Source of the DNA: an uncultured Anaerolineae bacterium
GTDB lineage: Bacteria; Chloroflexota; Anaerolineae; JACIWP01
NCBI GenBank assembly: GCA_938049385.1
Contig: CALIBQ010000063.1
Span: 1-58,626 of the forward strand
Length of the DNA: 58,626 bases
Direction: 5' to 3'
The position numbers were made by a program, and so were the translations under genes. Below are positions 26,562 to 41,442 of this stretch, one piece after another. How positions within the stretch are numbered: the stretch's first letter is position 1; every line of letters starts with the position of its first letter. A model generated the notes under the pieces. That model was not told where the DNA came from, ran no database searches, and saw only the letters and a program-made list of their open reading frames with translations.

Positions 26562-26750
26562 ATGAAGCGTCCATGGACTTGGATAGGAAGCATTATCGTC
26601 CTGGTGCTGGCCGGGTTGTTCTGGCTTGCGGCCGGCGCGTTTCAGCCGCCGGCGCGCCATACCGCCCCAGCCGGCGGTCTTCTGGGGGAATATCCTCATG
26701 GATGGCGCGAATGTTCCCGCCGGCTCACCGATCACCGCCTTCGTGTATGA
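26562..26750 (+). pseudogene. Signal-peptide fragment, out of frame with the following gene
   Basis: ATG 26562 encodes a good signal peptide (MKRPWTWIGSIIVLVLAGL, then FWLAAGAFQPPA) but then runs into unrelated residues and stops at 26750. The next gene, in the +1 frame, lacks a signal peptide, and its frame is open across this segment. The two fit together if one base is skipped between about 26630 and 26670. This is probably the true N-terminus of the DNRLRE protein, disconnected by a frameshift. Confidence 0.65.
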
Positions 26751-27684
26751 TGGCTCCACCCCGGTGGAATGTGGACATACTTTGGTGCAGATGCAGGAAG
26801 GGCAGTCCGTGTATGCCGTGGCGGTGAACGGAGATGACCCGGATACGCCGGCCAAGGAGGGAGCGCAGGATGGCGAGGCGGTCTATTTCTGGGTGGATGT
26901 GCTGGGGGAGCGGCGGCAGGCTCAACAGTCTGGGATATGGCATAGTGCGGTGACCAGCCGGCTGGACCTGACCATTGCCGGCCCGCCGGCGACAGCCACC
27001 CCAACGCCGACGCGCACCCCGACACCTTCGGCGACCCCATTCCCCGGCGGGCGTAAGGTGTTTCTTCCCCTGCTGACCAAACTACCGCCGCTGAGTGGGC
27101 CGCTGACGGTGGTAGTGTTTCAGGAGGGAAGCGGGGGGTATGCCGGCGTCAAGGATGCTACGCTGGATGCCTGGTCACCGTACAGCAGTTTTGGCGCGGA
27201 TGGGGTTCTGCGTGTGCATGCGTACGATGTGCGCAGTGCACTGCTGATGTTTGACCTTTCCTCTATCCCTAAACGGGCGTATGTGGCGGAGGCTCGGCTG
27301 GAGCTGTATGCCGAAGGGCGCACCGCCGAGGCACCCCTATCCGTGGCGGTATATCGGGTCAAGCGGCCTTGGTCCGAGGAGCACGCCAACTGGCTGTGGG
27401 CGGATGTCGGGCAGGCATGGCAGGAGGCCGGCTGTAACGGCCCGGTGGATCGGGAGCAGGCCCCTTTGTCATCGGTGCAGGCCACTCGCGCCGGTTGGTG
27501 GTACACGTGGGATGTAACGCTCTTCGTGCAGGATTGGGTCCAGTTCCCCGAGAGCAATGCCGGCGTCCTGCTCCGCACTCCTTCGTCCAGCGATTGGGTG
27601 GAGTATCAATTCAGCTCCTCCGAAGCCTCTAACCCCTCTGTACGTCCGCGCCTCACCGTCGCCTACCGTGCGGTGTCTCCGTAA
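26626..27684 (+). CDS. Secreted EWVNFYG-like and DNRLRE (CBM96-like) domain protein, 5' frameshift
   Basis: The open frame starts at TTG 26626; the first ATG is 26698. Residues ~15-118 form the most divergent copy of a ~100-residue domain repeated in the three following genes (VFWGNILMDGANVPAGSPIT, PVECGHTLV, GDDPDTPAKEGAQDGE). A TPTPTRTPTPSATP linker leads to VFLPLLTK. A DNRLRE-type beta-sandwich follows (KDATLDAWSP, SALLMFDLSSIP, EARLELYAEG, WDVTLFVQDWV, VRPRLTVAYR), a module often found in secreted carbohydrate-binding proteins. The upstream signal peptide at 26562 is in another frame, so the gene is either frameshifted or wrongly sequenced there. Function beyond surface binding is unknown. 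Confidence 0.75.
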   Translation: MRPARFSRRRAIPPQPAVFWGNILMDGANVPAGSPITAFVYDGSTPVECGHTLVQMQEGQSVYAVAVNGDDPDTPAKEGAQDGEAVYFWVDVLGERRQAQQSGIWHSAVTSRLDLTIAGPPATATPTPTRTPTPSATPFPGGRKVFLPLLTKLPPLSGPLTVVVFQEGSGGYAGVKDATLDAWSPYSSFGADGVLRVHAYDVRSALLMFDLSSIPKRAYVAEARLELYAEGRTAEAPLSVAVYRVKRPWSEEHANWLWADVGQAWQEAGCNGPVDREQAPLSSVQATRAGWWYTWDVTLFVQDWVQFPESNAGVLLRTPSSSDWVEYQFSSSEASNPSVRPRLTVAYRAVSP

Positions 27685-27742
27685 GAATCCCATCGTCGGA
27701 AGCGTACACTGCCGCGCCCCAAGGCGCAATGTGCTAACAAAC

Positions 27743-27845
27743 GGCAGTTGAAACTGCACCAACGACTGCGAAGTCGGCCGGCGCCGACTGGTATAGCCCA
27801 CGCAGGTGGGCTTCGCAACTGTAGCCGCGACTTCCAGTCGCCCAG
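27743..27845 (+). repeat. Intergenic structured repeat, copy 4 (partial)
   Basis: Shares GGCAGTTGAAACTGC, CTGCGAAGTCGGCCGGCGCC, a variant palindrome CCACGCAGGTGGG and TAGCCGCGACTTCCAGTCG. It lacks the tail with the TTTTTCAACACC box and no -35 follows. A degenerate copy behind the DNRLRE gene. Confidence 0.7.
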
Positions 27846-27907
27846 AATGTTATAGCATTGGAAAGCCCTGGCCGCGCCCCAACTGGGCGTGCAAAACTGG
27901 TAAGTTA

Positions 27908-27916
27908 TGGTATAAT
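27908..27916 (+). promoter_or_regulatory. Extended -10 promoter without an obvious gene
   Basis: TGGTATAAT at 27908-27916; the -35 position (CGTGCA) is poor. No convincing reading frame follows before the promoter at 28176, so it could drive a small RNA or a long leader for the giant protein. The stretch 27920-28170 has several small stems, including CTCGG...CCGAG near 28100, but nothing I recognise. Confidence 0.45.
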
Positions 27917-28175
27917 GTAGGCAGTAAGCTTGCCGGCTGGGAGGCGGCTCCGTACCGCCGGCGTCCCTCTTGCGTCATAATATTGAAGCGCGTGCCATAT
28001 CGCCCCGATGCGCGGTGTCGCGTGTGGATATTGTGCCGGCCTGGGTCTGGTCGGCCCCGATATGTGCCTCTGTGTGCCATCGCCATTGCTCGGAAGAGTG
28101 GATAATAGGGTGAGTCCGAGTTATCTCAGCAGAGCATGCTTTTACGTTAAGATTTCCCCAGTTATGTAATTTGTA

Positions 28176-28204
28176 TTGACACAGGGTATGAGGTGTGATA
28201 TTAT
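28176..28204 (+). promoter_or_regulatory. Promoter of the giant duplicated surface protein
   Basis: TTGACA (28176-28181), a 17-nt spacer and TATTAT (28199-28204). The leader to ATG 28299 is about 88 nt. Confidence 0.85.
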
Positions 28205-28298
28205 GTATACGTGAAAGTTCCCGCGCAAGGATTGGTCCGGCTGGTGGTTGATGCCTACACAACATCTAGGTGGCAGGCTAAGCATAAAGGAGGATGCT

Positions 28299-31200
28299 AT
28301 GCGTAGGACAGTCCCCTGGCAGGCGCTGTGCGCCGCAATGATTGTCGTCATGGTGGTGGGATTCCTTCTCCCGAATCTCATGGTTGCGCCGGCCTCCGCC
28401 AGCTCGCCCCAGGCAGGTGCCGGACAGGATGTGGGGACATCACAGCTCGGCCCGGGTGTGTACAACACACTGCGTGTCTACGGTCGGGATAACGAAGGCG
28501 CCGGCAATCAAGCTGTCGTTGACCCGATCACAAGCCGTCCGCCGGAAGACCCACCGTACACCGAGCTGGGCTCGATCTTCGACCCGCAGGGCCCGCAAGC
28601 GCCGCGCAAGGACTTTATCACCTGGGACCCCATCTGGATGCATGAAGAGTATACCCCAGATGAGAACCAGCGGCTCTACCAGGACATTTACATCAGCGGC
28701 ATCAACGGGTCGGAGAAAGTCAACTTCCGCATGTGGTACGAGCCCCGCCATCTGGACAAGGACCTGAACGCCGACGGCATTATCAGTGAGACGGTGGACA
28801 TTGTCTATCCGGCGCTGATGCAGGAGTTCACCTATCAGCTCACTGATATCGGCTATGTGCCCGGGGCATCGCCCAGCCGCCTGCCACTGCCTGCTGTGGG
28901 GAATGCCGGCAGTACCTCCTTTGTGTTCCCCATGGCCATGCGCGCCGGCGACCTCTTTGACGGCAGTGGGAATGTGGACACTTCCTCTGGCAATGCCCTT
29001 TTTGGCTACGGCCTGACCAGCCTGGATGCCAACTTCGATGGCGCCGGCGATATCGTCAACATTGACAGCGAGACCACGCTGGCTGCCAAACTGGGCCTTG
29101 CGCCGGGTACCTGGCTGGACTTCGACGGCGACGAAGTCTTGGACACCTTGAGCAGCGATGGCGCGGCGCTAAGCGGCGATGAACTGGTGGTGTTGAGCCT
29201 CAACCCTGTCCGCCTGGGCATCGGCGAGTCCGTCCAGTTCCTGGACTACCTGGTAACCCTCCAGGCGGTGGGTGACAGCGACGCCGTTCTGCTGGTGCGC
29301 TATGTCGGCGATCGCATTCCCGATAACCCCGCCCATGCGCATACCATCCCCAACGGTGGTGTGCGGTTTATTGACCGCCACGGCTCCGAGACGCTGGCGC
29401 CTAACGGCGGGGATGCGGTGGTGGCAGTGCCGGTCAGCCCCTTCTTCGTGCAGTTGGTGGCGGTGGATGCTCGCGACAATGCCGCTACGGTGCGCATCGG
29501 GCGCGGCCTCGGCGCGCCGTATTCCGCCATGGAGAGCGCCCCGTTCACCGCGGACCTGCGGCCGGGCGACCCCTGGTTCCTCAAGCGCTTCTATGTGGAC
29601 GGCCATGAGTACAATGTGACCGCCATCGGCACGCTGGGAACCGAGGGTTTCCGCTTCATCACCATCCGCACGCCTGTGCCGAAGGTGCCGGTCTACATCG
29701 CTCAGCACTCCATCGAACTGCAGGATTACGGCGCGCTGGATTGGCTGTCGGTAATGCCGCCGTACAATTACGAGCACTTCATCTTCACGGATGTGCAGGC
29801 CATCAACCGCTTCTCCGATGAGACGGTGCCGCCGACGACCGGCACGACGCCCGATAGAGTCGAGCCGTACATTGACTATGTCGGCCGGCTGGTCGGCCCG
29901 GTGCCGCCCATCCTCCAGCACAACGGCCCCTTCCCGTACTACGGCATCAATCCGAACGTGCCGTACGGCGACCCGCGCGAGATGTTCCTCTTCTACGTCG
30001 CCGAAGATGTCAACCCGCAGTATCTCGGTGAGTTGAAGGAACTCTACGGCGAGGTGCCCAACCCCGACACCGAAGACCCGGTGCCCTACAAAGAGTTCTG
30101 GTACGTCCAGCAGTTCTGGACCCAGCCGTGGGCCTATACCGAGCTGGTCCTGCCGGATATCCGTTCCACTCGCATGCCGGCCGGCCATCCCGACCTGTAT
30201 CTCTTGACCAGCTCGTTCCTGGCCGATGAGACGGAGATGCTCCAGTGGCGCCAGGGTACCCCGCCGCCCTGGGCCTACAACCTGGCGTGGGACCCTGTGC
30301 GGGAGACCTGGGTGCGCGATACGACGGTGAACGACTTCGCCGGCTACTGGGCGCCGCGCGATGTGCCGCGCGTGCAGTTCTGGTTCGACCCGGCGGAGGG
30401 GGGCAAGAAGTACAAGGACGAAGAGGGCATCCGGCTGTACGGCCGGCTGAACGAGGGTGCCGGCCTGGGCACGGTCGGGGATTATATTGATCCGGTCAAC
30501 GGCACCTATCCCGTCGAGGTCATGCCCTACAGCGATCCTTGGGCGCCCTTCAACCCCGATCTGCCAGAAGCTCCGCGCAAGGACTCCCTGACCTTCAACC
30601 CGGTCTACATGAGCCGCGATAACAGCCTGACGGACCCCCTGCGCGGCCTGTACGGGCAGATTTCAGTGGAAGGCCAGGATGCCCGCGAGAAGCTCTTCTT
30701 CCGCATGTGGTATGAACCGCAGTACTACGACAAAATCCGCATCGCCAACACGTCCATCTACAGCTTCCCGGCAGTGATGCAGGAATTCACCTTTATGGTG
30801 CTGGACACCAACGATCAGCCAACGCACGGCCGCGCCGGCGCCACCAACATCGCCTTCCCCATGGCTACCAACGCGGATGGCCTGCCGCGGCCCGATCCCA
30901 GCACCAAGCAACTGCCGGCCAGCCGCCTGCCCAGCTTTGGCTACGGCATCAACAGCTTCGATGCCAACTTCGACGGCACGCCGGATATCGTGCGCGTGCA
31001 CTCGGAGTTCAGCCTGAATCAGTACCTGGGCACGGTGACACTGGACTTCGACGGCGACGGCGTCGGCACGGATTTCATTGACCCCGACGGCGTCGGCGGC
31101 AACCCGTTGATGACTGGCGATGAGATGGTGGTCTTTGCCGTGCAGAACATCCATCTGCGCATCGGGCAGAGCGCCCAGTTCCTGGACTACATGGTTACCC

Positions 31201-33383
31201 TGAACAACGTGGCCAGCACGCCGCTGGGCGTGGCGCAGGCGCAGTTCCAGCTCTGGTACACGGGCGGTGGGCTGTTCCCACGGCCGGGCGGCGGCTATTC
31301 GCTCCAGCCTCTGCCGGTGCCGGCGCTGGGTTCGACCACCGACCTCCAGCCGGGTGACGCGGCGGTGGCCGGCCGCAACCGCGGCTATGTGCGCCGCATC
31401 GCCAACGGCACGAACAACCTGGGTTCCGTGGACGGCGGCTGGTTCATCTACGTTCACAGCGTGAACCGCACGCTGGAAGAGGCCACTATCACCATCGGCC
31501 GCGCGCTGGGTGCCACCTACTCCGCCATCGACAACGGCGCCGCCGGCCATGACCTCGACCCCGGCGACCCCTGGTACTTGAAGCGCTTCTTCGTGGACGG
31601 TCATGAGTACAACGTGGTAGCCATCCGCGCCGAGTTCCAAGGCGATGCCGGCATCAACGAGGACCCGACGGAGTTCAAGTACATCACCATCCGCACGCCG
31701 GTCCCGAAGGTAAACTTCGTCAACCAGCAGGATTCCCAGGTGCTCCAGGGCTACTTCCAGGGGCTGGTATGGGGCGTCAACACGGACCAGATTTCGGTAC
31801 TGCCGCCGTTTGACCGCACCCATACGATATCCGAGGATATTGTTACGCTGGATCCAGCGAAATTTGCCATCCCCTTCTGGTATGACAGCGACTGCGCCGG
31901 CATCGCGCGGCCGTCGCGGGTTGTGCCAGCCCTGAACATCTGCATCATCTCCGAGGACCGCGATCCGCAGTTCTTCGGCGAGCTGAAGGAAATCCTCGAC
32001 CCGTACATCGAGAACCGCTGGGACACCCAGCAGTTCAACACTCTGCCGGACCGCTTCACCGAACTGCGCCTGCCGGCCGGCGAACTGTACCTGCTGACCT
32101 CCAACTGGCGCTCCAGCGAGAGCATCGCGCACTTCTACGGCTGTCCACTGCCGCCGCTCAACCCGTTGACGCCGGATAACCCGGCCATCACCTGGAACCA
32201 GCAGATCGAACTGGCAGGGGTTCGCGCCGGCGACAGCCCTGTCTCGATCCCGATCCCCAACATGGGACCCAACTATGCAATGCTCTACTGGCCGCCCGTG
32301 CCTCAGCCGCCGGCACAGCCCACCAACCAGTACCTGGCGGACTACTACGACGGGCTGTTCGACCCGAACGACACGTGGGCTAACAGCCTGCGGGTGAAGT
32401 TCTGGTATGACCCGCGGGATGTGGAGGACATCTACGTCAACCGCTTCACGATGACGCCGGCGGTGCGCACCATCAACCTGCGGCAGGGCTGGAACCTCAT
32501 CAGCTTCGACGTCTTCCCCATGGACCCGGCCATCGCCTCGGTGCTGTCGGGTATCGCCGGCCGCTACACCCGTGTGCTGTCCTTCGACTGCAACGCTGGC
32601 ACACCGGGCCTGAGCTACTATCCGGATCTGCCGGCGCTCAGCAGTCTCCAGCACATGGATCCGTATCACGGCTACTGGATCTACATGAACTCCAGCGCCA
32701 CGCTGACGGTGCAGGGCTTTGAGATTCCGGACAGCACGCCCATCTACCTGTGCGCCGGCTGGAACCTGGTCAGCTACCTGCCCGAATCGCCTCTGCCAGT
32801 GGATGTGGCGCTCCAGAGCATCAACGGCCTGTACTCGGTCGTGCTGGGCTGGGACAACGGCGCCCTGTCCTACTATCCGGACCTGCCGCCTGGCCTGAAC
32901 AGCTTACACAATCTGGAGCCTGGCCACGGCTACTGGGTGAAGATGACGGCGCCGGCGACCCTGGTCTATCCGGAAGGCTACGCCATGGCCGCCTCCGAGC
33001 TGGAACCCAATGTGCTGAGCACCATGGTGCCGCCGTCCAACATCTGGGCCAACTTCGTGGCGCTCAACTCCCGCTTCCACGGCGATCCTCTGCCGGTGGG
33101 CGCGGTGGTGCGGGCCTTTGACCCGGACGGCGTGATGTGCGGCGAGACGGTCGTGGCGGTGGAAGGCGGCTTCGTCATGGCGGTCTACGGCGATGACCCG
33201 CAGACACCGGAGGACGAAGGCGCGGAGGTCGGCGACATCATCCGCTTCACGGTGAATGACGAGCCAGTCATCACCATGCCGAAAGACCCGATCTGGCCCG
33301 GCAATATGGAGCGGGTGGATATCGTCATCGAACCACTGCGGTCTTTCCTGCCGATCAAGGTGAAGCAGTGGGCTGGGGGGTAA
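28299..33383 (+). CDS. Giant secreted protein with internal ~655-residue duplication
   Basis: 1694 residues. ATG 28299 follows AAAGGAGGATGCT and opens a signal peptide (QALCAAMIVVMVVGFLLPNL, cleavage near ASA). Two homologous units follow, at nt ~28460-30420 and ~30430-32440. Both contain VYGR/LYGR-x-NEGAG, QAPRKD/EAPRKD, FRMWYEP, FDANFDG-type DANFDG(A/T), FDGDxV, QFLDYxVTL, RFxVDGHEYNV and TIRTPVPKV. Two tandem 'GWNLxS...GYW' modules come next (~32470-32990). The C-terminus has one EWVNFYG-type domain (DPLPVGAVVRAFDPDGVMCG, YGDDPQTPEDEGAEVGD) and the tail SFLPIKVKQWAGG. Repeated Asp-rich FDGDGV segments suggest calcium binding. A structural surface role such as an S-layer is inferred, not shown; no enzymatic motif is visible. 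Confidence 0.8.
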   Translation: MRRTVPWQALCAAMIVVMVVGFLLPNLMVAPASASSPQAGAGQDVGTSQLGPGVYNTLRVYGRDNEGAGNQAVVDPITSRPPEDPPYTELGSIFDPQGPQAPRKDFITWDPIWMHEEYTPDENQRLYQDIYISGINGSEKVNFRMWYEPRHLDKDLNADGIISETVDIVYPALMQEFTYQLTDIGYVPGASPSRLPLPAVGNAGSTSFVFPMAMRAGDLFDGSGNVDTSSGNALFGYGLTSLDANFDGAGDIVNIDSETTLAAKLGLAPGTWLDFDGDEVLDTLSSDGAALSGDELVVLSLNPVRLGIGESVQFLDYLVTLQAVGDSDAVLLVRYVGDRIPDNPAHAHTIPNGGVRFIDRHGSETLAPNGGDAVVAVPVSPFFVQLVAVDARDNAATVRIGRGLGAPYSAMESAPFTADLRPGDPWFLKRFYVDGHEYNVTAIGTLGTEGFRFITIRTPVPKVPVYIAQHSIELQDYGALDWLSVMPPYNYEHFIFTDVQAINRFSDETVPPTTGTTPDRVEPYIDYVGRLVGPVPPILQHNGPFPYYGINPNVPYGDPREMFLFYVAEDVNPQYLGELKELYGEVPNPDTEDPVPYKEFWYVQQFWTQPWAYTELVLPDIRSTRMPAGHPDLYLLTSSFLADETEMLQWRQGTPPPWAYNLAWDPVRETWVRDTTVNDFAGYWAPRDVPRVQFWFDPAEGGKKYKDEEGIRLYGRLNEGAGLGTVGDYIDPVNGTYPVEVMPYSDPWAPFNPDLPEAPRKDSLTFNPVYMSRDNSLTDPLRGLYGQISVEGQDAREKLFFRMWYEPQYYDKIRIANTSIYSFPAVMQEFTFMVLDTNDQPTHGRAGATNIAFPMATNADGLPRPDPSTKQLPASRLPSFGYGINSFDANFDGTPDIVRVHSEFSLNQYLGTVTLDFDGDGVGTDFIDPDGVGGNPLMTGDEMVVFAVQNIHLRIGQSAQFLDYMVTLNNVASTPLGVAQAQFQLWYTGGGLFPRPGGGYSLQPLPVPALGSTTDLQPGDAAVAGRNRGYVRRIANGTNNLGSVDGGWFIYVHSVNRTLEEATITIGRALGATYSAIDNGAAGHDLDPGDPWYLKRFFVDGHEYNVVAIRAEFQGDAGINEDPTEFKYITIRTPVPKVNFVNQQDSQVLQGYFQGLVWGVNTDQISVLPPFDRTHTISEDIVTLDPAKFAIPFWYDSDCAGIARPSRVVPALNICIISEDRDPQFFGELKEILDPYIENRWDTQQFNTLPDRFTELRLPAGELYLLTSNWRSSESIAHFYGCPLPPLNPLTPDNPAITWNQQIELAGVRAGDSPVSIPIPNMGPNYAMLYWPPVPQPPAQPTNQYLADYYDGLFDPNDTWANSLRVKFWYDPRDVEDIYVNRFTMTPAVRTINLRQGWNLISFDVFPMDPAIASVLSGIAGRYTRVLSFDCNAGTPGLSYYPDLPALSSLQHMDPYHGYWIYMNSSATLTVQGFEIPDSTPIYLCAGWNLVSYLPESPLPVDVALQSINGLYSVVLGWDNGALSYYPDLPPGLNSLHNLEPGHGYWVKMTAPATLVYPEGYAMAASELEPNVLSTMVPPSNIWANFVALNSRFHGDPLPVGAVVRAFDPDGVMCGETVVAVEGGFVMAVYGDDPQTPEDEGAEVGDIIRFTVNDEPVITMPKDPIWPGNMERVDIVIEPLRSFLPIKVKQWAGG

Positions 33384-33399
33384 TTACAGACCGTCGCTA

Positions 33400-33427
33400 G
33401 GGGGAGGCCAGAGCAACGGCCTCCCCC
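33400..33427 (+). terminator. Hairpin after the giant protein gene
   Basis: A perfect 10-bp stem GGGGGAGGCC / GGCCTCCCCC with an 8-nt loop, 17 nt after the stop. The nearest T run (GTTTTA) is about 12 nt beyond, so it is a probable but not textbook terminator. Confidence 0.6.
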
Positions 33428-33509
33428 ACACTAACAGAGTTTTACCTGCGGGTGCAGTGGTACAGCGTATTGCACTCCACAGGGATGAGTTTCGCTGAAG
33501 GAGGCAGGC

Positions 33510-35807
33510 ATGCCTGACACATTCTCGAACCGCGCGTTTTTCCGGTGGTTACTGCTGGCCCTGCTGGCGCTTCTGCTAGCACTGCCGGCCACCGCCGGCG
33601 CCCAAGGGCCGATTCCCACCAACGAGTGGGTCAACTTTTACGGGCTGAACACCCTGCTGAACGGCGCGCCGGTGCCCGTCGGGGCGGTCATCACCGCCTA
33701 TGACCCGCAAGGGGTGTTGTGCGGGCAGTTCGTCGTGCACACCGCCGGCCGCTACGGCGTGATGCCGGTCTACCGCGATGACCCGATGACCGCCGCCGAT
33801 GAAGGTGCCAGCCCGGGCGATACCATTACTTTCCGCATCAACGGCCTGCCGGCCACTGCGCTCGGCCCCGGCCTGCCGAGGTGGACAGCGAATGGGGATG
33901 TCATTCAGGTGGAGCTGAGCGCCGGCGGCGCAGTCCCGCCCACAAACACGCCTGTTCCGCCCACGAACACCCCGGTGCCGGCCAATACCGCTACGCCTAC
34001 TCGCACGTTCACCCCGGTGCCGCCGACGGCGACGCCGGCCGCGCCCACCGCGACCTTCACGGCGGTGCCGCCGGCCACCTCCACCCCAGGCACCACGCCG
34101 CCAGAATGGGTGAACTTCTACGGCGAGAACTCCACCTATGACGGCGGTCCCCTGCCGGTAGGCGCCCGGGTGGAAGCCTGGAGCACGGACGGGGTCAGGT
34201 GCGGCGAGTTTGTGGTTGCGCAGGCCGGCCGCTACGGCCTGCTGGCCTGCTACCGCGCGCCCAACGGCCAGCCGGGCGTTCAGCCGGGCGAGAACGTCAT
34301 CTTCACCGTCAACGGCCGCGCCGCCCAGGTATTGGGCCCCGATGCCGCGGTCTGGACGGAAATGGGAGCGCGCCTGCATGTGGAGCTGAATGTACCGCCG
34401 CTGACGCCTTTCCCGACGGCGACGGCTACCCGCACCCCGACGCCGACCCCCGCCGGCGGGACGGTGGTTCCGCCGGAGTGGGTGAACTTCTACGGCACTG
34501 CCACCACCTATTACGGCGCGCCGGTGCCGATGGGGGCGCTGGTGGAAGCCTTCGCGCCCGACGGGACGAAATGCGGCCAGTTTGTGGTGACGACCGCTGG
34601 CCAGTACGGCGTCCTGGCATGTGTGCGCTCGCCGCTGGGCGTGCCTGGCGCGCATCCCGGCGACACGATCTCGTTCAGGATCAACGGCCGGCCGGCCAAC
34701 GCCTTGGGGCCTGACTCGGCGGTCTGGACCACCAACGGCGACGTCCGCCATGTGGAGCTGGAGGTACCGCCGCTGACGCCTATCCCCACCAGCACGCCGG
34801 CGCCCACCGCTACTTCCACACCCTCCGGGCCTCCTGGCTCGCCGGAGTGGGTGAACTTCTACGGCATCAATACCATTTATGAGGGTCAGCCCATCCCCGT
34901 CGGTGCGATTGTCCGGGCGTGGAGCCCCGATGGGGTGGAATGCGGCAGTTTCACGGTGAGTGAGCCGGGCAGGTACGGCCTGCTGGCCTGTATGGGTGCG
35001 CCCATCGGCCTGCCTGGCGCGCATCCCGGCGATACCATCTACTTCACCATTAACGGGCGCGCCGCCCTGGCGGTGGGGCCGGACAGCCCGGTGTGGACGA
35101 CCAACGGCGACCTGCGCCATGTGGAGCTGTTCATCCCGCTGTCCACGCCGACGCCGTGCCCTATCTGTACCGCCACGCCGACGCCGGCGCCTGGCACACC
35201 GACGCCGACCCCGCCGGCGCTCACGCAGACCCCGACCGCCACTGTACCGGGCGCGACGGCCACGCCGGCGCCTTCCCCCACCCCCGGCGGCCTCTGCTCA
35301 CAGGGCATCATCTACACGGTGCGCTGGGGTGACTGGCTGTACAAGATCGCTCGCTGTTTCGGTGTCGCGGTGCAGGATATCCTATACTGCAACTACCTGC
35401 CCAACCCGAACTACCTGCGGCCCGGCCAGCAGTTGTTCATCCCGGGCGTGACGCCCACGCCGACGCCGGCTCCTGGCGTAACCCCCACGCCGGCGCCCAC
35501 CACGGTGTACATCGTGCGGCCGGGTGACACGCTGTCGGGCATCGCCTGGCGCTTCGGCACCACCGTGCGTGCCATTATGTCGCTGAACGGCCTGGTGAAT
35601 CCCAACTATATTTACGTGGGACAGCGCCTGCTGATCCCGACGGGCACCACGCCGCCGCCCTCCGGCCGCACGTACATCGTCCAGTACGGCGACTCATTGT
35701 GGAAAATCGCCATGCGCTTCGGCGTCAGCATGTGGCGCCTGGCTGTGGTGAATAACCTGTACTATCCGTATATTATCTATCCAGGCCAGGTGCTGGTTAT
35801 CCCGTAA
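33510..35807 (+). CDS. Secreted protein: four EWVNFYG domains and three LysM domains
   Basis: 765 residues, starting at ATG 33510 behind GAAGGAGGCAGG. A signal peptide ([20 protein letters not shown], cleavage at AGA-Q) is followed by four EWVNFYG domains separated by Thr/Pro linkers. Copy 1 has the acidic [12 protein letters not shown] loop and one Cys (VLCGQF). Copies 2-4 replace that loop by GAP/GVP-type turns and gain a second Cys (LLACYR, VLACVR, LLACMG). Three LysM domains end the protein ([54 protein letters not shown]), each with the GD-x-L/W-xx-IA motif that binds peptidoglycan or other GlcNAc polymers. It is likely held on the cell wall by LysM and presents the repeated domains outside; the domains' ligand is unknown. 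Confidence 0.85.
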
Positions 35808-35853
35808 CGGCCCGTGCCACCCTGTGCCCGGGTTAGCGGGCTTCATACGATTC

Positions 35854-35897
35854 TGCCTGGGGATGTTGTGCCGGCTCTGCGGTGCCATCCCCAGGCA
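35854..35897. terminator. Long hairpin between the LysM and cohesin genes
   Basis: A perfect 12-bp stem TGCCTGGGGATG / CATCCCCAGGCA with a 20-nt loop and no U-tract. It could end or slow upstream transcription, or protect an mRNA end. Confidence 0.45.
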
Positions 35898-35956
35898 TAT
35901 CCCTGTTGTAATACCGCCCATCGCCACCGGGCATTCCATGTGGGAGGTAGGCTGGC

Positions 35957-36679
35957 ATGAAACGCATTGCTATCATCTTGCTCATCGCGGCGCTCGCCGC
36001 CGGCTGGGGCGCCGCATGGCTCTCCGCTTCCACGACCCCACAGGTCACCCCCACCAACCGCTGGGCCAATTTCTATGGGCTGGCCTCCACCCTGGACGGC
36101 GCGCCGCTTCCCATTGGCTCCGTCATCCGCGCCTATGACCCGGATGGGGTCAACTGCGGGGAATGGGTGGTCAATTCGGAAGGCGTCTACGGCATGATGC
36201 CGGTCTACGGAGACGATGTGGAGACGTCGGCGGACGAAGGCGCCGAGGAAGGTGATACCATTACCTTCACTATTAACGGCTGGCCGGCCTCCCCAATAGG
36301 GCCAGACGCCCCGGTGTGGAGCTGGGGAACCCTGCGTCATGTCGAACTGGTGGCCTTCAGCGGCGCCGCCACCGCGACACCGACCGCAACCTCCGAATCG
36401 CCGGGCAAAAAGGCCGCCGAGAAAAAGCCTTCAGCGGCGCCGCCACCGCGACACCGACCGCAACTTCGCCAGCGACCGGCACCGCCACGCCTACTCCCAC
36501 GCAGACCTTTACCCCGACCGCCACACGGACATTCACACCTACACCCACCACCACGACCACGCCGGGCGCCGTGCACATTGAGTTCGTGCCCAATTTCGCC
36601 GGCGTGCCGCTGGGCGGCTCGTTCTATCTGGACGTGTGGGTGCACACCAACGGCTATCCTCTGGACGCCGTGGATGTGA
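35957..36679 (+). pseudogene. 5' part of the frameshifted cohesin-like surface protein gene
   Basis: ATG 35957 follows GGGAGGTAGGCTGGC. It opens a signal peptide (MKRIAIILLIAALAAGWGAA) and one EWVNFYG domain (NRWANFYGLASTLDGAPLPIG, IRAYDPDGVNCG, DEGAEEGDTITFTING, LRHVELV), ending in SGAATATPTATS at about 36394. After this the frame reads Lys/Pro/Arg-rich residues (GKKAAEKKPSAAPPPRHRP) unlike any neighbour, and stops at 36679. The meaningful continuation is in the -1 frame (36316-41442). The switch coincides with a 38-bp direct repeat at 36353 and 36427; without 74 nt the two frames join perfectly. Confidence 0.8.
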
Positions 36680-39600
36680 CCGCGACCTTCAACCCGACCT
36701 ATCTGCGGGTGGACAATATTGACCGGGGGAGCACACTCTCCCAGACGCTGGTGGAGACCTGGAACAATACCGCCGGCACTGTCCGCTACGCTGCCGGCCG
36801 CGCCTTCACTGACCCGCCGGTGAGCGGCTCGTTTATCCTGTGCCGGGTATGGTTCACCGGGCTAGCCACTACCACCGGCACGCCGGTGAACTTCGACGCC
36901 GGCGCTTCCGCCGCCGTCTATATGGGCAACTACCTGCCCCTGACCTTCGGCAATGCTACTGTGACGGTGGGTGTGCCTACCCCGACTCCCACGCCGACCC
37001 CCAGTATCGTTACTTTGCGTGTCAGTCCATCATTTTACGCCGCCAGCCTGGGCGGGACCTTCGCGCTGGATATCGTGGTGGAGGCCGGCACCCAGCCGCT
37101 GGACGGCGTGGACGTGACGCTCAACTTCAATCCGACCTACCTGGCGGTGCAGAGCATCGCCGGCGGCATCGCTTTACCGGTGCCCCTTGCGCAGAGCTGG
37201 AACAACTCGACCGGCGTCCTGCGCTATGCCGCCGGCCGCAATTTCGCTGATCCACCGCCCAGCGGGACCTTTGTCCTGTGCAGTATCACCTTCCAGGCGC
37301 TGAACAACACCGCCGGCACGCCCGTGGAGTTCGATGATCCTTCTATTGAAGTCGCCTACGGCGGTAATCCCTTGCCCTTCACGACAGTGGATGGGCTGGT
37401 AGCGATTGGGCTGGCGACGGCCACCCCGACCCCGACGCCGGGCATGGTGACGGTGCGGGTTCAACCGGCGCTGTATGCCGCTTCACTGGGCGAGACCTTC
37501 GCGGTGAGCCTGATGATTGACGCCGGCGCCCAACCGATCGACGGCGCCGATGTGCTCCTGCAGTTCAACCCGACCTATCTCTCGATCATCGGCGCGGACA
37601 ACGGCGCGACACTGCCCATCGTCCTGACGAAAACCTGGGACAATGCCGCCGGCACCTTCCGCTATGCCGCCGGCCGCAACTTCATGGCGCCGCCGCCCAG
37701 CGGCACCTTTGAGCTGGTGCGCATCTGGTTCCATGCCGACGCGCTGACCGCCGGCACCCCGCTGAGCTTCGATGCCGGCACAACCGATGTGGTTTTTGCC
37801 GGCGGGTCTGTGCTGGGTTCCCTGCAGGGCGGAACGGTGCAGATTACCGCCGGCACTGTGACCCCGACCCTGACGCCCACGCCCACCCCGACCTTTATCG
37901 GCGGGGTGACGCCCACCAACGAATGGGTGAACTTCTACGGGGTGAACTCCCTGCTGAACGGCAGTCCTCTGCCCCTCGGCGCGGTAGTGCGCGCCTATGA
38001 CCCGAACGGCGTGAACTGCGGCATTTGGGTGGTGAACGCGGTGGGCCAGTACGGGCTGATGGCGGTGTACCGCGATGACCCGTCCACGCCGGCGGATGAA
38101 GGGGCTGTGCCCGGCAACACCATCACTTTTACCATCAACGGTGTCCCGGCGGTACCCATGGGACCGGATGCACCCACCTGGACGGCCATGGGCGATGTGC
38201 GGCATGTAGAGCTGAACGCGGCGGCGGCTCCGACGGCCACGCCGACCATCACCAGCACGCCCACCAGGACGCCGACGTTCACCGCCACAGCCACCCATAC
38301 CCCGACCGCTACGGCGACCAGCCCAGCCCCGACTGCGACCCATACGCCAACCGCCACTGGCCCTGCCCCGACGGCTACCCCGACGCCCACGCCGGCCGGC
38401 ACCCCCATCCTCACCAATCTGTGGGTGGATTTCTACGGGGAGAACTCCTTCTATATGAGCAGTCCGCTCCCCATCGGGGCAGTGGTGCGGGCCTATGACC
38501 CGGATGGGGTGATGTGCGGCATGTTCGTCGTGCACACCGCCGGCCAGTACGGGGTCATGGCGGTCTACGGCGATGACCCGACAACGCCGGAGGATGAAGG
38601 CGCGCGCCCTGGCGATACCATCACGTTTACCATCAACGGCGTGCCGGCTGTGCCGCTGGGGCCGGATGATCCCATCTGGACAACACACGGCGACCGCAGG
38701 CACGTGGAGCTGAACGCGGTGCCTTCGGCGGCGACCGCCACGCCGACGGCGACCTCCGTCACTGCCACGCCAACCGCGACCGCCACGCGCACAGCAACGG
38801 CTACTTATACGCCGGCGGCTACATCTACGCATACACCGACCCCCACCATCACCCGGACGCCGACCGCCACTGCCACGCACACGCCTACCCGGACGCCGAC
38901 GGCCACCACACCCGTGACCGGCACACCCACGCCGACACCGCCGGGCGGCATCGTCATCACCAACGAGTGGGTGAACTTCTATGGGCTGGACTCCTACCTA
39001 GATGGTCTGCCTCTGCCGCTGGGGGCGGAAATCCGGGCCTATGACCCGGACGGCGTCCTGTGCGGCGTCTTCACGGTAGTCATGCCTGGGCAGTACGGCC
39101 TACTGCCGGTATATCGGGATGATCCTTCCACGCCGGCGGATGAGGGAGCTGAACCTGGGGATATCATCCATTTCACCATCAACGGCGCGCCGGCGACCCC
39201 CTTGGGCCCGGACGAACCTATCTGGACCAGCAACGGCGACCTGCGGCATGTGGAACTGAACGCGGTCAGCTCGGCGCCGACGCCGACCCGCACCTTCACG
39301 CCCACTATGACGCCGACCGGGACAGTGCCGGCGACGGCGACCCCGACGCCGACACCCACCGTTACGCGCACACCCACGCCCACTGGCGTGACGCCCACGG
39401 TTACGTACACCCCTACCCGCACGCGCACACCCACGCCGACAGGGACGCCGGGGGGCGTCATCCCGACCAACGAATGGGTCAACTTCTACGGCATCAACTC
39501 CTTCCTGGATGGGGCGCCTCTGCCGGTGGGCGCTGTCGTGCGGGCGTATGACCCGGACGGGGTGCTGTGCGGGCTGTTTGTGACCACCATGCCCGGCCAG

Positions 39601-41442
39601 TACGGCATCATGGCGGTCTACCGTGATGACCCGCTGACGGCGGTGGACGAGGGTGCGCGTCCCGGTGATACCATTTCGTTCACCATCAACGGCTGGCCGG
39701 CGACCCCCATGGGGCCTGATACGCCGGTCTGGACCAGCAACGGCGACCTGCGGCATGTGGAACTGAACGCCGTGAGCACCATCACAGGGTATAATGCTTT
39801 CCTGCCCATGGCAGCGCGAGGTTACGAGGGGCCGACCCCCGTGCCCACTGCGACGCCGACCCGCACCGCGACCTTCACGCCTTCGCCGACGCGCACCATC
39901 ACGCCGACGTTCACGCCGACCTTGACACCGACCATTACCCGCACGCCGACGGTGACGTATACACCGACCGTGACGCGCACGCCCACGGCCACGACGACGC
40001 CGGGCGCCGGCAGTGCCATTTACGGGTTCGTCTATCATGACATGAACGGCAACGGCGTGTGGGATATGACGGAGCCCACGCTCTCCGGTGCCCTCCTGAC
40101 CCTGGATGGCGTGTACACCTATACCACCTCGTGGGACGGGTATTACTACTTCGGCGGGCTGACGCCCGGCATGCATACCCTGGTGGAGACTAACCCGCCC
40201 GGGTACCCGGTCTCGACCACGCCGGATACTATCCATTTCGAGATTCCCATGATGGGTGCCATCGTGCGCTATGACTTCGGCGACCGGCCCACTGCGGTGC
40301 CGACCCCGACACCGACAGCCACGGTGGAATGTCCGCCGCCGTTCGTCGTGGATGATCTGGACCCGGGCTTTGCCCGCTTCGGCACGGCCGCATACTGGCA
40401 TGGGGTCAATATGGGGTACGCCGGCCATATGTGGTGGACCCTCTCCAACGGTGCTGTGGTCGACAACTGGGCGCGCTGGCAGCCGACCATCCCCGCCACT
40501 ATGCGCTACAGGGTGGAGGTGTACATCCCCGCCGGCTATGCCGGCTATACGCCCACCTCCAGCGCCCGCTACATGGTCTACCATCGCGACGGCGTGACGC
40601 CGGTGGTGGTGAACCAAGCGGCGCATCCGAACCAGTGGGTCAGCCTAGGCGAGTTCTGCTTCACCGCCGGCACCAGCGGCCGGGTGGAGCTGACGGATGC
40701 CACCGGCGAAGCGGTCGGCACGCGGTCTATCGCCTTCGATGCAGTGCGCTGGACCTGTCTCGGGCCGTGCGGGCCGGTTGTCGGCACACCGACCCCCACG
40801 CCGACCATGACCAGCACGCCGGCGCCTACGACAACACCGACACCCACCAGCACGCCGCTCCCGCCGTCCTGCTCCCAGATTATCGTGAACCCGGGCTTCG
40901 AATATGACGGCGCCTGGAGCATGTTGGGGGCCAAGCCGGGCAGGTACACCACCCTCGACCGGTATGCCGGCCTGCGCGCCGGCTTGATGGGCATCCTGCC
41001 CGATGAGAGGGATTTCGAGGCGCACAGCTCCATCTTCCAGCAGATCACCATCCCTGCCGATGCCCGGTCTGCCACCCTGCGCTTCTGGTATAAGCCCTTC
41101 GCGCAGGCACCGCACGCCGGCGACCCCACTGCCTACGATTGGACCGGCTTCGCGCCTGGGAAAGAGGTCAAGTCAGCAGACCTGCCGGCCATGGTGGATG
41201 GCAAGCCGAACTGGTCGTACGATGACTGGCAGTTCGCGCTCATCCGCTACGGCTATCAGGGCCAGCAGTGGGCCTACGTGCTGATGACCAACTCCAACGC
41301 CGGCGTCTGGCTGGAAAGGACCTATGACCTACTGCCATGGAAGGGACAGAATATCTGGGTGCATTTCGAGGTGCGCAACGATGGGGACGGCGCCCGGAGC
41401 TGGATGTACGTGGATGAGGTAACGGTCACTGTCTGCCGGTAA
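36316..41442 (+). CDS. Main part of a cohesin-like multidomain surface protein
   Basis: The meaningful frame begins at about 36427 (AFSGAATATPTATS) and joins the part starting at 35957 across a frameshift; together ~1803 residues. Order: three cohesin-like domains (nt ~36571-36969, 37008-37410, 37446-37860), each with LGG/LGE-x-F, (L/I)D(A/G)xDVxxxFNPTYL, W(N/D)N, RYAAGR and PPxSG(S/T)F; four EWVNFYG domains (~37908, 38400, 38950, 39458); a short FLPMAARGYEG motif; an SdrD/Cna_B-like domain (YGFVYHDMNGNGVWDMTEP); a golvesin C-terminal-like domain (VVDDLDPGFARFG, TSGRVELTDATGEAVG, IAFDAVRW); and a C-terminal jelly-roll-like region (IVNPGFEYDGAWSML, TLRFWYKPF). TPTPTRTPT linkers separate domains. 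Cohesins normally bind dockerins, but none is seen in the window. Confidence 0.82.
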   Translation: MELGNPASCRTGGLQRRRHRDTDRNLRIAGQKGRREKAFSGAATATPTATSPATGTATPTPTQTFTPTATRTFTPTPTTTTTPGAVHIEFVPNFAGVPLGGSFYLDVWVHTNGYPLDAVDVTATFNPTYLRVDNIDRGSTLSQTLVETWNNTAGTVRYAAGRAFTDPPVSGSFILCRVWFTGLATTTGTPVNFDAGASAAVYMGNYLPLTFGNATVTVGVPTPTPTPTPSIVTLRVSPSFYAASLGGTFALDIVVEAGTQPLDGVDVTLNFNPTYLAVQSIAGGIALPVPLAQSWNNSTGVLRYAAGRNFADPPPSGTFVLCSITFQALNNTAGTPVEFDDPSIEVAYGGNPLPFTTVDGLVAIGLATATPTPTPGMVTVRVQPALYAASLGETFAVSLMIDAGAQPIDGADVLLQFNPTYLSIIGADNGATLPIVLTKTWDNAAGTFRYAAGRNFMAPPPSGTFELVRIWFHADALTAGTPLSFDAGTTDVVFAGGSVLGSLQGGTVQITAGTVTPTLTPTPTPTFIGGVTPTNEWVNFYGVNSLLNGSPLPLGAVVRAYDPNGVNCGIWVVNAVGQYGLMAVYRDDPSTPADEGAVPGNTITFTINGVPAVPMGPDAPTWTAMGDVRHVELNAAAAPTATPTITSTPTRTPTFTATATHTPTATATSPAPTATHTPTATGPAPTATPTPTPAGTPILTNLWVDFYGENSFYMSSPLPIGAVVRAYDPDGVMCGMFVVHTAGQYGVMAVYGDDPTTPEDEGARPGDTITFTINGVPAVPLGPDDPIWTTHGDRRHVELNAVPSAATATPTATSVTATPTATATRTATATYTPAATSTHTPTPTITRTPTATATHTPTRTPTATTPVTGTPTPTPPGGIVITNEWVNFYGLDSYLDGLPLPLGAEIRAYDPDGVLCGVFTVVMPGQYGLLPVYRDDPSTPADEGAEPGDIIHFTINGAPATPLGPDEPIWTSNGDLRHVELNAVSSAPTPTRTFTPTMTPTGTVPATATPTPTPTVTRTPTPTGVTPTVTYTPTRTRTPTPTGTPGGVIPTNEWVNFYGINSFLDGAPLPVGAVVRAYDPDGVLCGLFVTTMPGQYGIMAVYRDDPLTAVDEGARPGDTISFTINGWPATPMGPDTPVWTSNGDLRHVELNAVSTITGYNAFLPMAARGYEGPTPVPTATPTRTATFTPSPTRTITPTFTPTLTPTITRTPTVTYTPTVTRTPTATTTPGAGSAIYGFVYHDMNGNGVWDMTEPTLSGALLTLDGVYTYTTSWDGYYYFGGLTPGMHTLVETNPPGYPVSTTPDTIHFEIPMMGAIVRYDFGDRPTAVPTPTPTATVECPPPFVVDDLDPGFARFGTAAYWHGVNMGYAGHMWWTLSNGAVVDNWARWQPTIPATMRYRVEVYIPAGYAGYTPTSSARYMVYHRDGVTPVVVNQAAHPNQWVSLGEFCFTAGTSGRVELTDATGEAVGTRSIAFDAVRWTCLGPCGPVVGTPTPTPTMTSTPAPTTTPTPTSTPLPPSCSQIIVNPGFEYDGAWSMLGAKPGRYTTLDRYAGLRAGLMGILPDERDFEAHSSIFQQITIPADARSATLRFWYKPFAQAPHAGDPTAYDWTGFAPGKEVKSADLPAMVDGKPNWSYDDWQFALIRYGYQGQQWAYVLMTNSNAGVWLERTYDLLPWKGQNIWVHFEVRNDGDGARSWMYVDEVTVTVCR
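36353..36464 (+). repeat. 38-bp direct repeat (74-nt offset) at the frameshift
   Basis: The same 38 nt, starting GCCTTCAGCGGCGCC and ending GACCGCAAC, occurs exactly at 36353-36390 and 36427-36464. The 36-nt spacer is A-rich (two AAAAAG runs) and unlike the flanking Thr/Pro codons. Losing one repeat copy and the spacer removes 74 nt (3x24+2) and restores one reading frame across the gene. Confidence 0.9.

Follow-up and report, generated by a model that had tools for sequence, protein, structure and literature searches.

What is a domain of about 103 residues, present 11 times in four neighboring genes for exported proteins, doing at the surface of an uncultured Anaerolineae bacterium? The window that raises this question is the whole 58,626-nucleotide contig CALIBQ010000063.1, in which an initial annotation made from the letters alone had proposed 11 copies of a domain that it could not name, here called the EWV domain. 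We found that the EWV domain is an unnamed, repeated domain of secreted proteins in the libraries searched (Pfam, NCBIfam and PDB sequences) and that its most conserved setting is a pair of adjacent genes, not an array. We tentatively propose that it links two surface proteins, one of them large and the other anchored.

An unnamed domain repeated in four genes

The proposed 11 copies in four genes were recovered both by translation and by profile, with starts within ∼30 bases of the positions first given. All lie on the + strand, in the genes P1 (26626-27684), P2 (28248-33383), P3 (33510-35807) and P5 (35957-41442):

26668..26979, + strand: EWV copy 1, divergent, N-terminal in P1 (profile E 6.3e-34; leave-one-out E 8.5e-12)
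33036..33341, + strand: EWV copy 2, C-terminal in P2 (profile E 3.7e-41)
33618..33935, + strand: EWV copy 3, immediately behind the P3 signal peptide (translation, profile)
34101..34409, + strand: EWV copy 4, P3 (translation, profile)
34473..34781, + strand: EWV copy 5, P3 (translation, profile)
34842..35150, + strand: EWV copy 6, P3 (translation, profile)
36053..36367, + strand: EWV copy 7, immediately behind the P5 signal peptide (translation, profile)
37915..38232, + strand: EWV copy 8, P5 (translation, profile)
38413..38730, + strand: EWV copy 9, P5 (translation, profile)
38959..39276, + strand: EWV copy 10, P5 (translation, profile)
39466..39783, + strand: EWV copy 11, P5, used for structure prediction (translation, profile, AlphaFold2)

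When each copy was left out in turn, a profile of the other 10 recovered it with E = 5e-52 to 8.5e-12 (5,000 sequences); as a control, 5,000 shuffled host proteins gave a single match, at E = 0.034. Even the very divergent copy at 26668, which is only 30-39% identical to the remaining copies, was recovered. The profile found 20 copies in this genome in total, 11 in the window and nine elsewhere.

No Pfam or NCBIfam model scored above its cut-off for the window copies and no PDB sequence matched them, and 135 diverse relatives likewise gave no convincing match in these three libraries, in agreement with the initial annotation. A recurrent faint match was to PapC_C (PF13953), over the strand pair 'P-GA-V-A-D-DG--CG' (E 5.1e-5 in P3 and 1.5e-4 in the chloroflexotal locus L152). 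Membership by profile was rejected, the scores of 23.4 (P3), 17.9 (P5) and 21.9 bits (L152) standing against a gathering score of 27 bits. In contrast to PapC_C, the EWV domain is longer and has a conserved GDDPxT-DEGA loop, and the proteins here are without an usher barrel, the five window open reading frames (ORFs) having no Pfam match to an usher barrel family. Other candidates fell away in the same set of 135: one member matched SdrD_B (E 0.036), and none matched CnaB, SdrD_B or SpaA convincingly; eight matched the bacterial immunoglobulin (Ig) family Big_6 (PF17936) faintly (best E 0.0054, not significant); and none of the isolated domains matched cohesin (PF00963). Transthyretin (TTR)/prealbumin-like adhesin domains, including CarboxypepD_reg, were matched in Pfam by single EWV members only, at E 0.036-0.059. 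SdrD_B and CarboxypepD_reg do adjoin the EWV domain in some proteins. A CnaB isopeptide subgroup would be expected to show a conserved Lys-Asn/Asp isopeptide pair, but no well-filled column of the family alignment is dominated by lysine. PDB matches to antibody light chains had E above 0.07 and were taken as chance.

A gene pair found in several phyla

The initial annotation considered the module specific to its lineage, a view refuted by copies in several phyla with up to about 60% identity. A GTDB scan with a pattern built from a 7-copy alignment and seeded with window copies gave 43 loci in total, in Chloroflexota, KSB1, Neomarinimicrobiota, Latescibacterota, Zixibacteria, WOR-3, Cloacimonetes, Calditrichota, Poribacteria, Balneolales and others, including one in a bin labelled Nanoarchaeia that may be misbinned. 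An iterated search that included chloroflexotal genomes recovered about 207 distinct copies, spread over about 158 ORFs. At least one match (E ≤ 0.001) was present in 46 of 199 sampled genomes of the class and 19 of 301 of the phylum, many of these being distant 'FYGxVTxNGxxxPxGT' relatives. Carriage by viruses or plasmids was rejected, as IMG/VR held no relatives with the patterns used and the plasmid comparison gave no match.

Across these loci the domain tends to occur in two genes at once. Outside the window's own genus, 20 of 41 loci have an adjacent, same-strand ORF pair in which both members carry the domain and which is separated by ≤153 bp or overlaps. L062, which belongs to the same genus as the window, and L097, whose gap is 1.5 kb, are left out of this count. 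In most pairs the domain is C-terminal in the first protein and directly N-terminal in the second. The first protein is typically 1,400-1,900 aa long with the layout domain-GWNLIS-GWNLIS-domain-sorting tail, and the second is typically 330-700 aa with the domain directly behind the signal peptide. The four genomes G481, G482, G483 and G484 each yielded three copies at E ≤ 1e-6, every one of them within a single gene pair; in G478 the pair holds three of four. The gene pair, and not the array, is the most conserved setting of the EWV domain.

The GWNLIS modules (∼88 aa each, in tandem) constitute a second unnamed, widespread family conserved with the EWV domain across phyla. Neither Pfam nor the PDB sequences gave a convincing match to them, and GWNLIS-GWNLIS-domain forms one conserved unit of ∼297 aa in Chloroflexota and several other phyla. 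In the window, P2 followed by P3 has the same order as the gene pair elsewhere:

28248..33383, + strand: P2, 1711-aa secreted protein, the large partner ('gene A'), with orthologues in the genus
28470..30233, + strand: N-terminal ∼640-aa repeat of P2, copy 1, no Pfam match
30429..32123, + strand: ∼640-aa repeat of P2, copy 2, from comparison with copy 1
32445..33035, + strand: two GWNLIS modules, ∼88 aa each, ahead of the P2 EWV domain (alignment, confident model)
33510..35807, + strand: P3, 765 aa, signal peptide, four EWV and three LysM domains ('gene B')
35232..35804, + strand: three LysM domains of P3 (Pfam LysM in three stretches, 1.1e-47; outer limits read from the sequence)

All copies had been placed between Thr/Pro linkers, which does not hold for the 33036 copy; it comes after the two GWNLIS modules. 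P2 as a whole is without any Pfam match. Its two direct repeats are 35% identical to each other (E 5e-84), and the N-terminal repeat is present in 25 of 199 genomes of the class, in proteins mostly of 1600-2000 aa; P2 is a candidate major surface (S-layer-like) protein.

In many cases the second gene carries an anchor or sorting tail, of differing kinds: LysM in P3, a type IX secretion system (T9SS) sorting domain in L063, L064, L070 and L075, and, in L105, an LPVAG-like tail that includes a hydrophobic stretch. In L152, from another family of Chloroflexota, the P2 homologue ends in an EWV domain and the following gene has three N-terminal EWV copies plus cohesin and dockerin. Among 17 P2-type loci examined, an EWV-ended P2-like protein occurs only in the window's own genus and in genome G186. 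The P2 homologues of L153, L154, L156, L159 and L160 end, as judged by eye, in a carboxypeptidase-regulatory-like, a dockerin-like and a cohesin-like domain; in L154 the regulatory domain is confirmed by Pfam, and cohesin falls narrowly below the cut-off. That P2-type proteins carry, at one and the same end, the EWV block in some cases and a docking-type set in others is suggestive, though not proof, of a docking role.

One explanation for this arrangement, and the one that we favor with somewhat less than even confidence, is that the EWV domain is a coupling module through which a large surface protein docks to a partner that is anchored. The C-terminal domain of protein A and the N-terminal domain of protein B would hold two exported proteins together, with B supplying the anchor: LysM in the window, T9SS-dependent attachment elsewhere and the LPVAG-like tail in L105. 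In the window, P2 would act as A, P3 as the LysM-anchored B, and P5 as an expanded, cohesin-bearing, scaffold-like partner; the four to five copies in P3 and P5 would give several docking places. LysM would hold P3 to peptidoglycan, and the whole may form a surface assembly. The domain, its predicted fold, its distribution and the gene-pair architecture are the established parts of this explanation; binding between A and B is inferred from the gene pairs. Three points weigh against it: repeated Ig-like or TTR-like domains are often mere stalks; Chloroflexota copies are also scattered over other proteins, as expected of a generic spacer; and the predicted fold fits its PDB neighbors weakly. In addition, most other-phylum loci come from the single pattern scan, and several end at contig edges. 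A more specific version, which we consider doubtful, is that the two forms of the domain (C-terminal in A, N-terminal in B) bind each other with GWNLIS as part of the lock, in several phyla. The two forms would then be an undescribed protein-coupling pair that serves different export and anchor routes (T9SS, LysM, sortase-like), and their multiplication in this genus would have produced a surface scaffold with many binding sites.

Such coupling would work like cohesin-dockerin in that a multi-copy, linker-joined module sits on a scaffold-like protein, single copies sit at the ends of other proteins and one member is wall-anchored; cohesin and dockerin themselves are present in the same proteins in relatives. 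In contrast to cohesin-dockerin, the EWV domain is neither of the two by sequence, both partners belong to the same family and no enzymes were seen in the window's set. A literature search on the motif, on dockerin in Zixibacteria and on LysM surface proteins of Anaerolineae found nothing, subscription journals lying outside its coverage, and an account of the envelope of the chloroflexotal Litorilinea (PMC13319060) makes no mention of cohesin or dockerin. As far as the open literature and the libraries covered show, the gene pair is undescribed. Naming this widespread extracellular domain would allow many surface proteins now called 'hypothetical' in uncultured bacteria to be annotated. If the coupling proposal is true, the pair would be a self-contained surface coupling system, common to phyla with differing cell envelopes and of use comparable to cohesin-dockerin; the chloroflexotal case would offer a candidate route for holding a large repeated surface protein to peptidoglycan in poorly understood envelopes.

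Two side observations concern proteins of other loci. EWV proteins of Chloroflexota (L105, L107, L111, L118, L123, L127, L130 and others) often end in Y/F-L-P-L/V/M-x-x-R/K, possibly a sorting or anchoring signal. At L068:1211-1819, a protein of ∼200 aa is composed of a signal peptide, a single EWV domain and one type I dockerin (Pfam E 1.5e-6).

Predicted fold and other possible roles

AlphaFold2, given 135 aligned sequences, predicted the EWV domain as a seven-strand beta-sandwich with high confidence (predicted local distance difference test score, pLDDT, 95.6; predicted template modelling score, pTM, 0.88). Co-occurring cysteine pairs provide independent support for this model. Cys10 and Cys100, a pair that would link the first strand to the last, co-occur in 12 of 12 cases (p 2e-17, an optimistic value as the sequences are related), and Cys52 is never present without Cys36, its counterpart across a predicted hairpin (16 of 16, p 2e-4). 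A beta-sandwich, which the initial annotation had in view, is borne out by a confident model; its neighbors of known fold are weak. Foldseek gave no match below E 1e-3, the best being the PapC usher C-terminal domain 3l48 (E 0.013, prob 0.99). The VIA list reached a maximum Z of 6.5, with many entries from usher C-terminal, transthyretin, CnaB/SdrD-B and carboxypeptidase TTR-like domains. The PapC/FimD usher C-terminal domain had Z of about 5.6-6.3, below the level separating true relatives, and CnaB2, SdrD and pilin domains had Z of about 5. Because Z values of this size may reflect a common arrangement only, as the tool itself notes, we describe the predicted fold as weakly transthyretin-like without any claim of kinship; the predicted strand number, seven, is that of transthyretin/prealbumin-like adhesin domains. 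The GWNLIS-GWNLIS-domain block was also predicted confidently (pLDDT 93.2), and in its fold search the neighboring EWV domain fills the match list, so that the search says little on GWNLIS itself.

The company of SdrD-B, CnaB and pilin domains among the fold neighbors raises the possibility that the EWV domain is a structural spacer only, a rigid stalk bead like those of CnaB, SdrD-B and bacterial Ig domains that, with Thr/Pro linkers between beads, would raise other modules off the cell. Arrays of four to five copies with such linkers are consistent with this idea, as is the occurrence of the domain together with SdrD_B and cohesin-like domains. However, generic spacers would not be expected in genomes whose only three copies all sit in one gene pair, the strong conservation of GDDPxT, DEGA, GD and W90 seems beyond a spacer's needs, and copies are held in register within the genus. 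We regard a pure spacer as rather unlikely.

The initial annotation instead inferred a surface module for adhesion or ligand binding, for example to glycans. Nothing found favors a ligand role over an assembly role. The surface location fits a ligand role, some weak fold neighbors are domains of starch or pectin enzymes, P1 pairs the domain with DNRLRE/CBM96, and a metal or a ligand could sit in the acidic GDDPxTxxDEGA loop, which is conserved. Yet no carbohydrate-binding module (CBM) or lectin family was matched convincingly in sequence, the starch-binding fold matches were no better than those to many unrelated sandwiches, and the fixed terminal position in the gene pair is atypical for lectins, making an adhesin role improbable in our view.

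Age of the arrays and the remaining host genes

The repeated copies had been attributed to local amplification, partly on the grounds that identity was highest within a gene. The repetition itself is plain, but it is old and not recent, the copies having orthologues in the genus's other two species. In a tree of 55 copies, each clusters with those at the same position in the other species, mostly with 97-100% support; the roughly 100 columns resolve the deep branches poorly. This grouping by position across three species indicates that the arrays predate these species and that the copies are not being homogenised; recent local amplification was rejected. Highest identity within a gene holds for P5 and not for P3. 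The first P3 copy shares 60-69% identity with the copies in the following gene and 45-60% with its own neighbors, and in the tree it groups apart from the other three P3 copies.

The LysM, cohesin and DNRLRE partners first noted beside the EWV copies were all matched by Pfam or NCBIfam; the latter two lie in P5 and P1:

35957..41442, + strand: P5 gene, frameshifted into ORFs 35957-36679 and 36316-41442 (ORFs, relative's frame)
36352..36470, + strand: 73-bp insertion (∼41 bp duplicated plus filler) breaking the P5 frame (blastn against L062)
36560..37860, + strand: three cohesin-like repeats of P5; one (∼37048-37338) reaches Pfam, the other two by eye
27151..27660, + strand: DNRLRE/CBM96 domain of P1 (NCBIfam 2.2e-26, Pfam 1.8e-17)

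In the nearest relative covering the site (L062; G002 = L165, apparently the same metagenome-assembled genome as L062), the P5 equivalent is one 1825-aa ORF and the 73-bp insertion is absent; the insertion may be a true mutation or an assembly error. The Pfam Cohesin match of P5 (5.9e-8, residues 245-341) lies outside the EWV copies, and further domains of this protein are SdrD_B, Golvesin_C and a weak MAM-type match. P1 has no evident in-frame signal peptide in the window (26587-26680), with a stop just upstream, and in its homologous ORF of G001 (L164:7948-9087) a signal peptide was flagged by a crude pattern.

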